Shown here piece by piece: positions 12,444 through 20,497 of a DNA stretch of 21,572 bases; the first letter of the stretch is position 1, and the number at the start of each line of letters is the position of its first letter. This DNA comes from a virus. The notes beneath the pieces are model-generated. The model had not been told where the DNA came from. It ran no database searches and saw only the letters and a program-made list of their open reading frames with translations. A program made the translations under genes and the position numbers. Where the stretch lies: the IMG/VR virus record IMGVR_UViG_3300011113_000757, positions 1 through 21,572 of that record; one strand, written 5' to 3'.

Positions 12444-13139
12444 ATGAATGAACATTTAAAAGTTTCTGCTGAAGGACTAGAACACATTACAAAATGGGAA
12501 GGTCTGATGCTCAAGCGTTATATCTGTCCAGCCGGCAAACCCACGATCGGTGTGGGACACGTTATACTTCCCGGTGAAAATTATCAAGAGATCACCAAAG
12601 AACAGGCAATAGAAATCCTCGCAAAAGACGTGGAGAGATTTGAAAAAGCTGTCAAGAAACACATCACAGTATCTCTCAATCAGAACCAATTTGATGCTCT
12701 TGTTAGTTTTATCTTCAATACAGGTGAAGGAGGAATCATAAACACCGGAGTGCAAAAAGCAGTCAATTCAAGTGATTTCGCTAGTGTTCCTGCGAAGCTA
12801 GAAGAGTGGAGCAAGTTTCGCGTCAACGGCGTGATGAAAGTTAACAAGGGACTATTGAATCGAAGAAAATCAGAGGCTCAATTGTTCATAAAACCCATTG
12901 AAGCCGGCGCAGAAGTTCAGGATGACTCTGTTATATGGGATAAAAATACGCTTAAAGAAGCACAAACATATTTGTCAAAGATTTGCCTGTATGACAAGAG
13001 CATAGACGGATTATGGGGTCCGGGTACGTCTAGTGGATTGACACAGTTTGCAAGTCAAAACTGCGTTTCTTTGGGTGACGATCCCAAGACCAAGATTCCT
13101 CGGGCTGTGTTTGAACTATTAAAGCAAAAATCTTCTTAA
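12444..13139 (+). CDS. modular endolysin: GH24 lysozyme plus peptidoglycan-binding domain
   Basis: A 231-aa endolysin. The N-terminal two-thirds is a T4-type GH24 lysozyme: 'ITKWEGLMLKRY' carries the catalytic Glu (about 19), then 'CPAGKPTIGVGH' with the Thr (about 34) of the family triad; Cys28 stands where many members have Asp, a common variant. Later 'LNQNQFDALVSFIFNTGEG' and 'GLLNRRKSEAQLF' are typical. The C-terminal part (about 170-215) 'LKEAQTYLSKICLYDKSIDGLWGPGT' is a peptidoglycan-binding (PG_binding_1-like) module. It cleaves cell-wall glycan at lysis. ATG 12444 is chosen over GTG 12423, which gives an odd hydrophobic extension; neither has a good ribosome site. No signal or SAR segment is seen, so a holin would be expected. 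Confidence 0.92.
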   Translation: MNEHLKVSAEGLEHITKWEGLMLKRYICPAGKPTIGVGHVILPGENYQEITKEQAIEILAKDVERFEKAVKKHITVSLNQNQFDALVSFIFNTGEGGIINTGVQKAVNSSDFASVPAKLEEWSKFRVNGVMKVNKGLLNRRKSEAQLFIKPIEAGAEVQDDSVIWDKNTLKEAQTYLSKICLYDKSIDGLWGPGTSSGLTQFASQNCVSLGDDPKTKIPRAVFELLKQKSS

Positions 13140-13735
13140 AGGCCGAGTTCAAGATACTTCTTCTTGATAACTTTGTGCAAACCTGGATTAACTTTCAATG
13201 CTTCAGGTACGATTCGGTGTCTAATCAAGTTTCTCATGAACCTCACATCGCAGTTCGACTCATCTTCGATCCACGATAGTTTCTTCCTCTTGCACCATGA
13301 GATGAATTCTTTTTTCGGTGTGATTAAGAAAGGATGAACAACGTTTCCACTGGAATGAGGAATGAGTCGTGATTCACCGTGAAGAGACGTGAAGATCCAT
13401 GTCTCTATCGCATCGTCTAGATGATGGCCAGTGATCACCGGCGAATTAAAAGTCGAAAAGAACCAGTGCCGTTCATTCCGCCAGAATTCCTCAAGAGATT
13501 CTTCTTTGAGCCTGTCTCGTGACAACCTACCGATTCGAAGGTCCAATCCTCTTTCAGTAGCAAATTCTGTTACAAAGTTTAGTGCAGATGTTGATGTCTC
13601 TGTTCCATGATGAAAGAAAGCAAGATCTACTTCTTTCCTTCCATTCAAAAGGAAATCAACCACGGCAACGGAATCGACACCACCAGAAAAAGCTACCGTA
13701 CACTTGTTAGGGATTTTTCCGATAAAGCGAATCAT
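13136..13735 (-). CDS. tilS: TilS-type tRNA(Ile)-lysidine synthetase, catalytic domain
   Basis: A 199-aa PP-loop ATPase. It has 'SGGVDS' (17-22), 'GHHLDDAIETWIF' (103-115), 'VVHPFLITPKKEFISWC' and 'SWIEDESNCDVRFMRNLIRHRIVP', all in TilS order. Only the N-terminal catalytic domain is present; the C-terminal tRNA-binding domains of long TilS are absent, as in short forms. TilS turns C34 of tRNA-Ile(CAU) into lysidine, so that it reads AUA and takes Ile. The gene lies directly downstream of a CAU tRNA with a terminator between. ATG 13735 ('GATGAAGAA' before it) is preferred to an in-frame GTG at 13774. The stop overlaps the convergent endolysin gene by four bases. Confidence 0.88.
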   Translation of the reverse strand: MIRFIGKIPNKCTVAFSGGVDSVAVVDFLLNGRKEVDLAFFHHGTETSTSALNFVTEFATERGLDLRIGRLSRDRLKEESLEEFWRNERHWFFSTFNSPVITGHHLDDAIETWIFTSLHGESRLIPHSSGNVVHPFLITPKKEFISWCKRKKLSWIEDESNCDVRFMRNLIRHRIVPEALKVNPGLHKVIKKKYLELGL

Positions 13736-13784
13736 GATTTCTTCATCATAACATGCAAAAGAAAAATTTTGCACATTAACAAAT

Positions 13785-13823
13785 AAAAAAGGAACCTTTA
13801 GAGGATTAATCTAAAGGTTCCTT
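13785..13823 (-). terminator. Rho-independent terminator after the tRNA
   Basis: Read on the minus strand: a 14-bp perfect stem AAGGAACCTTTAGA / TCTAAAGGTTCCTT (13810-13823 with 13789-13802) with a 7-base loop, followed by a T-run (13790-13785). It begins 3 bases past the tRNA 3' end and stops the tRNA transcript before the tilS-like gene, which must then be reached by read-through or its own promoter. Confidence 0.9.
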
Positions 13824-13826
13824 CAG

Positions 13827-13911
13827 TGGAACGGGTGGGGCTCGAACCCACAAGGGGATTTCTCCTTCAATTTATGAGATTGATGTCTGCCACCGATACG
13901 ACTTCCGTTCC
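13827..13911 (-). tRNA. class II tRNA with CAU anticodon (Ile2, Leu-like or Met; identity open)
   Basis: An 85-base cloverleaf. The acceptor pairs GGAACGG with CCGTTCC, and the T arm is GTGGG-TTCGAGC-CCCAC. The anticodon stem is TCAAT/ATTGA with loop CTCATAA, so the anticodon is CAU. A 15-base variable region (AGGAGAAATCCCCTT) with its own short stem makes it class II, like Leu, Ser and Tyr tRNAs. The D stem GTC/GAC with G13-A22, A15-U48 and A73 is Leu-like. CCA is not encoded. Position 8 is A and 14 is T, the reverse of the usual U8-A14. The tilS-like neighbour suggests lysidine at C34 and reading of AUA. The amino acid cannot be fixed from sequence alone. A strong terminator follows. Confidence 0.8.
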
Positions 13912-13996
13912 GTATTTATCTTTTGGTTTGTTTCCTAACCACCAGATATTGTTTATCTTAGTCTAAGCCCTTAATAATTTACAATTTATTTTTTAT

Positions 13997-16888: not shown

Positions 16889-18133
16889 TTACTTATTAAA
16901 CTGGTGTGATTCTGTGGATTCTTTGAGCGCAAGAGTTGAAGATTGTCCTCCGCTAATCACTTTGGAGACTTCGTCAAAGTATCCTGTTCCAACTTCTCTT
17001 TGATGCTTTGTTGCTGTGTATCCAAACTGTTCAGAGTCAAATTCTGCCTGTTGCAGTTCAGAATAAGCTGCCATTCCATGATCACGGTATTTTCTTGCCA
17101 ATTCAAACATTCCATGATTTAATGAATGGAATCCAGCAAGCGTGACGAACTGGAACTTATAACCCATCGCTCCAAGCTCACGTTGGAATTTTGCAATTGT
17201 TGCATCATCAAGCTTCTTCTTCCAGTTAAATGAAGGTGAACAGTTGTATGCAAGAGGCTTGCCGGGGAACTTTGCATGGATGCCTTCAGCAAATGTCTTT
17301 GCTTCTTCCAGATCTGGTGTTGATGTTTCCATCCATATCATGTCTGCATAAGGAGCATAAGCTAATCCACGAGCGATGCATCTTTCCATTGGAGAACCGC
17401 TAAGATAGTGGAATCCTTCGGGCGTACGCTTGTTTGGTTCAATAAACGACTGATCATATGGATCAACATCGCTAGTGATTAGATTTGCAGATTCAGCATC
17501 AGTACGAGCGATGATAATCGTAGGAACATCGCAAACATCAGCAGCAAGTCGTGCTGCGATTAATGTACGAATGAATTGTGACGTTGGTACGAGAACTTTT
17601 CCACCTAGGTGACCGCACTTCTTTTCAGAAGCAAGCTGATCTTCCCAGTGTACTGCTGCAGCGCCGGCTTCGATCATTGCTTTCATCAGCTCGTAGGCAT
17701 TGAGAGGACCGCCGAAGCCTGCTTCAGCGTCTGCGACGATGGGCGTCATCCAATGCTTATCGCTGTTTGGATTCTCCGCGTGGTCGATCTGCTCAGCTCG
17801 CAGAAGAGCGCTGTTGATTCGCTTGACGACGGCAGGCACGCTATTCGCTGGATAAAGACTCTGATCAGGGTAAGTGTTGCCTGATAAATTTGCATCAGCT
17901 GCCACCTGCCAACCAGAGAGGTAGATTGCCTCAAGTCCTGCCTTGACTTGCTGTACAGCCATTGCACCCGTTGAAGCACCAAGCGCATGCACGTAAGGCT
18001 TCTCATTAAACAACTTCCAAAGCCTCTCAGCTCCGATTTTTGCTAACGTGTGTTCTACTCGAGTCTTGCCGCGAAGACGAGCAACGTCCTCAGAACTATA
18101 TGCCCTTTTAATACCTTCAAATCTGTCTCTCAT
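16889..18133 (-). CDS. aceA: isocitrate lyase (glyoxylate bypass)
   Basis: A complete 414-aa isocitrate lyase. The catalytic loop 'KKCGHLGGK' (171-179, Cys173) and the metal site in '[12 protein letters not shown]' (131-142) are present, with 'NCSPSFNW', '[14 protein letters not shown]', 'EVGTGYFD' and the C-terminal '[10 protein letters not shown]' lid end. Length is close to the E. coli enzyme (434 aa). It splits isocitrate to glyoxylate and succinate; with malate synthase (not in this window) it bypasses the two decarboxylating steps of the citric acid cycle. The gene follows a virion gene on the same strand and precedes the lipoprotein by 4 bases. A TATAAT box lies 30 bases upstream. No frameshift or missing key residue is seen, so the enzyme is probably active. 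Likely acquired from a bacterium. Confidence 0.96.
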
Positions 18134-19815: not shown

Positions 19816-20497
19816 ATGTTTATAAGAAGAATATTTAATGAGGACATGCACGATCTAGATCTCTTAGATTTAATAAACGAAATAATAGAAGAAGAATTGT
19901 CTCTCGATGAGATGGACCCGAATTACTTAAAGGGTCTTTCTGGCAAAGAGAGGGCTGCAAGAAGAAGAGAGATAGAATATCGAAAGAATAAGAGATCGAG
20001 TGATCCATCTGCTTATGGTCCTTTCAAAACTGACAAGACACCTTCAGGCAAACCCCGTGGTGGAAACAAAGAGTCAGTTTGGACTCGAAAGGCAAGAGAG
20101 ATGGGATTTGGACCTGATAAGCAAAAAAAAGAAGACAAAGAAGGAAGCCACGGAACACGACGAAGAATTCTTGCTGGAAGATTTTGATCTAGAAGTTTTA
20201 AGAGAATTTATTAATGAAGCTATTCTAGATGAAAAGAAAAAGCGCAAGGGCAACAACGTCACAAAGGCTTTAAAGAACAAAGCTGAAAAATCAGGGGCTC
20301 CCATGAGTGCTCTTCGCGCAATCTACAATAAGGGACTCGCAGCCTGGAGAACAGGTCACCGTCCAGGGGCTTCTCAACATGCATGGGCCATGGCAAGAGT
20401 CAATTCAGTTCTTGCAGGTGGCCCTGCACGTAAGGTCGATGCCGCACAATGGAAGCAGATACAAAAGCACCGCGGTAAGAAGCGTAAGAAGAAGTAA
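19816..20497 (+). pseudogene. DUF5824-like phage protein, frameshifted at an A8 run
   Basis: Two frames join into one protein of about 226 aa if one A is removed from the A8 run at 20123-20130. The first frame (from ATG 19816) has an acidic, Leu-rich start ('DLDLLDLINEIIEEELSLDE') and a basic middle ('LSGKERAARRREIEYRKN', 'GNKESVWTRKAREMGFGPD'). Its natural continuation after the run reads 'FDLEVLREFINEAILDEKKK', then the DUF5824-like domain 'GAPMSALRAIYNKGLAAWRT' and 'ASQHAWAMARVNSVLAGG', ending in a Lys-rich tail. As written, frame one stops at 20187. Sequence error, recent mutation or slippage on the A-run could each explain this. The family occurs in phages; its function is unknown. Confidence 0.7.

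Follow-up and report, generated by a model that had tools for sequence, protein, structure and literature searches.

Does a phage that carries a tRNA with a CAU anticodon directly beside a gene for a tRNA(Ile) lysidine synthetase (TilS) bring along its own means of reading the codon AUA? Lysidine is known to block charging of such a tRNA by methionyl-tRNA synthetase (MetRS) and to enable its isoleucylation (PMC9976931). We analyzed this question in a 21,572-base IMG/VR virus record, which as a whole we call the window, and which contains phage genes for a sigma factor, a ClpP-like protease, a DNA ligase, and an endolysin. ARAGORN identified a single tRNA gene in the entire window, with anticodon CAU, and this gene lies 52–91 nt upstream of tilS (Table 1). 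Our proposal is that the tRNA and tilS together constitute a phage cassette that would read AUA as isoleucine. From the sequence evidence presented here we consider this the best explanation of the locus, with a probability of roughly 60%, for a pairing that is not obligatory.

Table 1. Position and basis of the features that make up the tRNA-tilS locus in the window.
Feature	Position	Strand	Basis
Class II tRNA gene, anticodon CAU	13826–13911	minus	ARAGORN; RF00005, 47.4 bits; cloverleaf covarying with relatives
tRNA leader with -10-like element TTAGACTAAGAT	13912–13975	minus	read by eye
Terminator-like hairpin (15 pairs) with T-run, between tRNA and tilS	13788–13824	minus	
tilS, catalytic N-terminal domain of tRNA(Ile) lysidine synthetase	13136–13774	minus	PF01171; TIGR02432; AlphaFold2/Foldseek; alignment; length

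A preliminary description of this DNA had placed a class II CAU tRNA just upstream of a TilS-type gene on the same strand and had suggested that the tRNA be checked with Infernal. ARAGORN, Infernal, and the TilS protein model TIGR02432 all agree with this arrangement. The fast filters of Rfam overlooked the tRNA when the whole window was searched; Infernal recovers it against RF00005 with a score well above the gathering score of 29 (47.4 bits, E = 1.4e-9). Single-sequence folding alone produced no cloverleaf for the class II forms, and the possibility that the tRNA is a structural artefact was rejected on the basis of the Infernal score and of covariation. With a variable region of 15 nt that includes a short stem, the window tRNA belongs to class II; its discriminator is A73, and the CCA end is not encoded in the gene. 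The anticodon loop of E. coli tRNA-Ile2 is CUCAUAA, and the window tRNA carries its CAU inside this same loop. Specifically, it resembles bacterial tRNA-Ile2 (CAU) in the loop, in A73, and in the acceptor-stem pair C5-G68, and departs from it in having a class II variable arm rather than a class I variable region, A4-U69 in place of C4-G69, and A8/U14 instead of U8/A14. The two acceptor-stem pairs C4-G69 and C5-G68 are the determinants for E. coli TilS, and TilS determinants vary among species (PMC12514573). Among nine aligned tilS-linked CAU tRNAs, C5-G68 is present in all nine and C4-G69 in one. A8 and U14 are also found in a relative of the window tRNA (L007), and the other aligned forms, L004 and L011 included, retain U8 and A14. 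As for the features of tRNA-Leu, the window tRNA has the long variable arm and A73 and lacks the combination of U8 with A14, which are determinants for leucyl-tRNA synthetase (LeuRS) (PMC9976931). The best single match to its body, by pairwise similarity to a small number of references, is a tRNA-Leu from a T4-type phage, which is only suggestive of a tRNA-Leu origin. The window tRNA is probably the proposed AUA-reading tRNA-Ile2, and a lysidine at C34 would make it an atypical tRNA-Ile2 in that it is of class II.

The neighboring open reading frame belongs to the TilS catalytic family, and its product is predicted to form lysidine. It opens with GTG; the conserved start is an ATG at position 13735, which gives a protein of 199 aa. 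This protein matches Pfam PF01171 (99 bits), with no other domain found, and NCBIfam TIGR02432 (lysidine_TilS_N; 102.4 bits, cut-off 93.6). AlphaFold2, supplied with 36 relatives from phages, models it with a mean pLDDT of 95, and the best matches that Foldseek finds for this model among solved structures are the TilS of Aquifex, followed by that of E. coli. In alignments of 25 and 36 phage members, the PP-loop SGGxDS, the motif HHLDD..ET, and the R of NER are invariant or near-invariant. When compared with the Aquifex structure (1wy5), invariant residues of the phage family line up with D137, E140, and R113, which have a role in lysine and ATP binding. In its PP-loop domain, SGGxDS motif, H/D/E/R active-site residues, and fold, the phage enzyme is thus like bacterial TilS of types I and II (E. 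coli, Geobacillus, and Aquifex). The difference lies in the C-terminal part: bacterial TilS has the C-terminal domain CTD1 in both types, with CTD2 present in type I and absent from type II (PMC12514573), whereas neither domain is found in the window protein or its phage family, which is therefore neither type I nor type II. This is also seen in protein length, as 97 distinct phage proteins have a median of 202 aa and a range of about 195–217 aa (two read-through starts give 263), and the bacterial relatives (n = 80) measure 279–500 aa. We found no separate gene for the missing C-terminal domain, since no neighbor recurs with tilS in the window clade beyond close kin. An enzyme of this kind, with neither CTD1 nor CTD2, would have to be active for the proposed cassette to work. 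At least 582 stretches in IMG/VR are candidates for encoding TilS relatives.

The preliminary description had suggested a search for the same gene pair in related phages, and had regarded random occurrence of one gene without the other as evidence against cooperation. We looked for tRNAs in every phage tilS locus that had been retrieved and, after merging near-identical TilS proteins at 98%, found that CAU is strongly over-represented close to the gene: it is the anticodon of 19 out of 35 tRNAs within 1.5 kb of tilS and of 5 out of 70 farther away (Fisher’s test, p = 1.7e-7). The same was found when TilS was clustered at 75% identity (12/26 near versus 4/64 far, p = 3e-5) and when only phages outside the window’s own clade were considered (7/18 near versus 4/69 far, p = 1e-3). 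Some of the loci had been retrieved with a tRNA pattern as the query, but searches with TilS only also recovered these contigs or close relatives of them. In several loci the gap between tRNA and tilS is as short as 16–22 bp (L006, L007 (seen as L112), L089, L127, L128, L153, and L194). This recurrent enrichment indicates that the neighborhood of the two genes is not a coincidence of the window contig.

Conversely, tilS without a CAU tRNA is common, including among sister phages of the window clade, in records that may be fragments. A phage whose TilS is 88% identical to that of the window (L003) has no tRNA at the corresponding place, and a permissive Infernal search revealed no missed tRNA upstream of tilS in this phage (L003/L130) or in L151, L165, L152, and L013. 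A 278-kb relative (G032) encodes TilS and 14 tRNAs, none of them with CAU; in another relative of 298 kb (G022), tilS stands next to a tRNA-Leu(CAA), and two CAU tRNAs belong to a cluster far from it; and tilS-bearing contigs of 263, 125, 100, and 88 kb had no detected tRNA. One gene is thus often seen without the other in related phages, as in L003 and G032, yet its occurrence is not random by position, and the pairing of CAU tRNA and tilS is conserved and recurrent, yet not obligatory. In a large clade (L015–L081 and related loci), a short tilS, mostly with no tRNA detected, lies near a gene for a small conserved protein (119 aa in one example) and one for a probable DNA polymerase of about 918 aa, and because of this position tilS looks like part of the replication region there. 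We also observed tmRNA genes in tilS-bearing phage contigs (L165, 9324–9699, and L152, 6973–7348; RF00023, 76 bits), as well as a tRNA with a CTA anticodon in another (L134, 9291–9365), which was called as tRNA-Pyl and is possibly an amber suppressor.

Because a hairpin and T-run stand between them, the tRNA and tilS of the window may not share one transcript, and the tRNA may end its own transcript at the hairpin. The terminator element of the window, GGAACCTTTAGA...TCTAAAGGTTCC, is also found 3' of the tRNA in L002, L004, L005, L010, and L011. On the other side of the tRNA, a partly self-complementary leader stretch, ATATCTGGTGG...AGAT, was recognized by eye as common to the window, L002, L004, and L007. 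A scan for sigma-70 promoters gave none upstream of the tRNA or of tilS, and no match within the leader itself.

The tRNAs adjacent to tilS have different bodies around the same anticodon loop. They are class I in L002, L006, L089, L127, L128, and L153. L007–L009 have class II bodies like that of the window, and the class II bodies of L004, L005, and L011 are Leu-like. In L010, a class I tRNA is split by a group I intron-like element (RF00028, 39.2 bits, E = 1.3e-8, which is below the gathering score of 50); at this place (L010, 225–530) splicing would yield a CAU anticodon only with a 3' exon that begins at CATGATCATA, and G37 would then remain. All forms without an interruption have the identical loop CUCAUAA, and they share most of the acceptor stem and T arm. 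In the set of nine tilS-linked CAU tRNAs, 99.4% of the cells in the four stems pair, and double changes occur at 13 out of 20 stem pairs, compared to 5.2 in shuffles (31 double-changed cells). When placed on the TilS tree, these tRNAs need three changes of class, and branches with strong support make at least two of them unavoidable: the window, with its class II tRNA, is the neighbor of L002, with a class I tRNA, at 92% identity in TilS, and L006, again with a class I tRNA, falls into a group with the class II loci L007 and L004. Since the same terminator stands 3' of quite different bodies, the bodies appear to have been replaced in place, and several such exchanges appear to have happened beside tilS. 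Swaps of the body around a constant loop are what we would expect if TilS reads the anticodon stem-loop and little else.

We then aligned the codons of phage open reading frames with their relatives and recorded the majority residue at each site. In contigs of the window type, the majority residue at AUA sites was isoleucine in 38 cases, valine in 31, and leucine in 15; in contigs with the Leu-like tRNA, it was isoleucine in 42, valine in 18, and leucine in 10. In the latter contigs, AUU and AUC sites behave like AUA, and leucine codons align with leucine in 65–76%. AUA thus aligns with isoleucine and valine rather than with leucine, which indicates that it means isoleucine in all groups, and the aligned codons show no recoding of AUA, even in contigs whose CAU tRNA has a Leu-like body. 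The observed/expected ratio of AUA, with the expectation taken from the share of A-ending codons, is 0.48 in the window, and the median in control phages is 0.54. AUA is therefore used no more than in control phages, and we rejected the idea that the pair is there because AUA is used heavily. Within the window, AUA codons cluster in plus-strand fibre-like genes (508–2643 and 19816–20187) and hardly occur in the long enzyme genes of the minus strand.

How might such a cassette work? We propose that the phage TilS would join lysine to C34 of the linked tRNA, and that lysidine at this position would stop charging by MetRS and let isoleucyl-tRNA synthetase charge the tRNA instead, so that the lysidine-bearing tRNA would read AUA. 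Having neither of the tRNA-contacting C-terminal domains, the phage enzyme probably recognizes mainly the anticodon stem-loop, and the body would thereby become exchangeable (class I, class II, or intron-bearing), provided that CUCAUAA is retained. Host tRNA-Ile2 is probably a further substrate, whose modification the phage enzyme would maintain during infection, and this would explain phages that have tilS without the tRNA. A supply late in infection, acting on the phage tRNA and probably on host tRNA-Ile2, would best fit the occurrence of tilS both with and without a tRNA. The AUA-decoding pair suggested in the preliminary description holds up in part: it is favored by the linkage of CAU tRNAs to tilS and by the meaning of AUA as isoleucine. 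Counting against the cassette, AUA is not enriched, tilS often occurs without a CAU tRNA, a hairpin splits the window pair, and the acceptor stem has only one of the two determinants for E. coli TilS (C5-G68, but A4-U69); moreover, the host's own tRNA-Ile2 and TilS could suffice for this task. A broader proposal, which we put forward tentatively and consider less likely than not, is that TilS exists in a third kind, common in phages, which consists of the bare catalytic domain and reads only the anticodon stem-loop. Such an enzyme would have freed the AUA-reading tRNA-Ile2 from a fixed body, and tRNAs that are class II, Leu-derived, or intron-bearing would repeatedly have taken over the decoding of AUA as isoleucine next to it.

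Other explanations account for part of these observations. The phage TilS might mainly serve the host tRNA-Ile2, keeping up its lysidine as host proteins vanish, and the linked tRNA would then be a separate supplement in the same cassette, for example a tRNA-Met. This would suit the tilS-bearing contigs of 88 to 263 kb in which no tRNA was detected, the clade that keeps tilS next to replication genes with no tRNA, and the hairpin that separates the window genes, as well as the finding that CAU tRNAs can be methionylated if unmodified (PMC12514573). We nevertheless consider it unlikely, because it leaves unexplained why CAU is so frequent among the tRNAs closest to tilS in several separate lineages. 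A further explanation makes the catalytic-domain-only TilS a host-takeover enzyme, which, lacking the domains that reject tRNA-Met, would also lysidinylate host tRNA-Met or initiator tRNA and so harm host translation, with the phage tRNA replacing the losses. In the type I enzymes studied, CTD2 touches the acceptor stem, whose nucleotides part tRNA-Ile2 from tRNA-Met (PMC12514573); the phage enzymes have neither C-terminal domain, and many of their carriers have no tRNA of their own. However, the translation of the phage itself would suffer too, the type II enzymes, which also lack CTD2, are ordinary enzymes of bacteria, and the idea has no direct support, so that we regard it as highly improbable.

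Alternatively, the class II CAU tRNA might be a tRNA-Leu body that is charged with leucine and, with lysidine, would recode AUA as leucine, or else would read AUG as leucine. The long variable arm, A73, and the similarity of the body to a T4-type phage tRNA-Leu point in this direction, as does the retention of U8 and A14 in the L004/L011 form. LeuRS can dispense with the anticodon arm in aminoacylation (PMC9976931), and a Leu-like CAU tRNA could thus in principle make AUA leucine. Yet it is in the very contigs with Leu-like bodies that AUA aligns with isoleucine and valine and behaves like AUU and AUC, and on this ground AUA-to-leucine recoding was rejected. The window form, moreover, has A8/U14 instead of the U8/A14 pair that LeuRS needs, and U8:A14 was found to be crucial for Aquifex LeuRS (PMC9976931). 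Charging with leucine therefore seems to us scarcely credible.

TilS has already been reported in phages MIJ3/PA5oct (PMC6892783) and RsoM2USA (PMC8504454), where it was not tied to a CAU tRNA or to the reading of AUA. The TilS of PA5oct is a short relative of the window TilS (40% identity), but the nearest annotated tRNA is more than 5 kb from tilS, in contrast to the adjoining CAU tRNA in the window. RsoM2USA TilS (ORF84) has 349 aa and is thus not the short form, and this phage is annotated without a tRNA-Ile. A precedent for an AUA-reading phage tRNA is the CAU tRNA of a T4-like Vibriophage, which carries k2C34; the review describing it suggests that host enzymes modify phage tRNAs (PMC13191261), and the k2C34 is possibly made by the host TilS. 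The Vibriophage tRNA and, as we propose, the window tRNA are both phage CAU tRNAs that read AUA; the window differs in having the gene for the enzyme next to that for the tRNA and in the class II form of the tRNA. In the literature searched, with subscription journals mostly outside it, we found no report of linkage between a phage CAU tRNA and tilS, of a TilS family that consists of the catalytic domain only, or of class II CAU tRNAs beside such a TilS, which is not proof of priority.

TilS sets whether a CAU tRNA means methionine or isoleucine, and the enzymes described in PMC12514573 are helped in this by C-terminal domains that touch the tRNA body. A widespread phage TilS without those domains, together with CAU tRNAs that change class, makes the problem of minimal recognition directly testable and raises the question of how far both the enzyme and its tRNA can be reduced with methionine and isoleucine still kept apart. 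A pair of enzyme and substrate would extend the tRNA cargo known from phages and might yield tools for engineering AUA-reading tRNAs.

Apart from this locus, the window encodes a full-length, phage-borne isocitrate lyase (16889–18133; NF011645, 738.7 bits, cut-off 562). Relatives of this protein are encoded on virus contigs of up to 337 kb, those of L339 and L340 with 89–90% identity, and one contig (L199/L357) carries both an isocitrate lyase relative and tilS.
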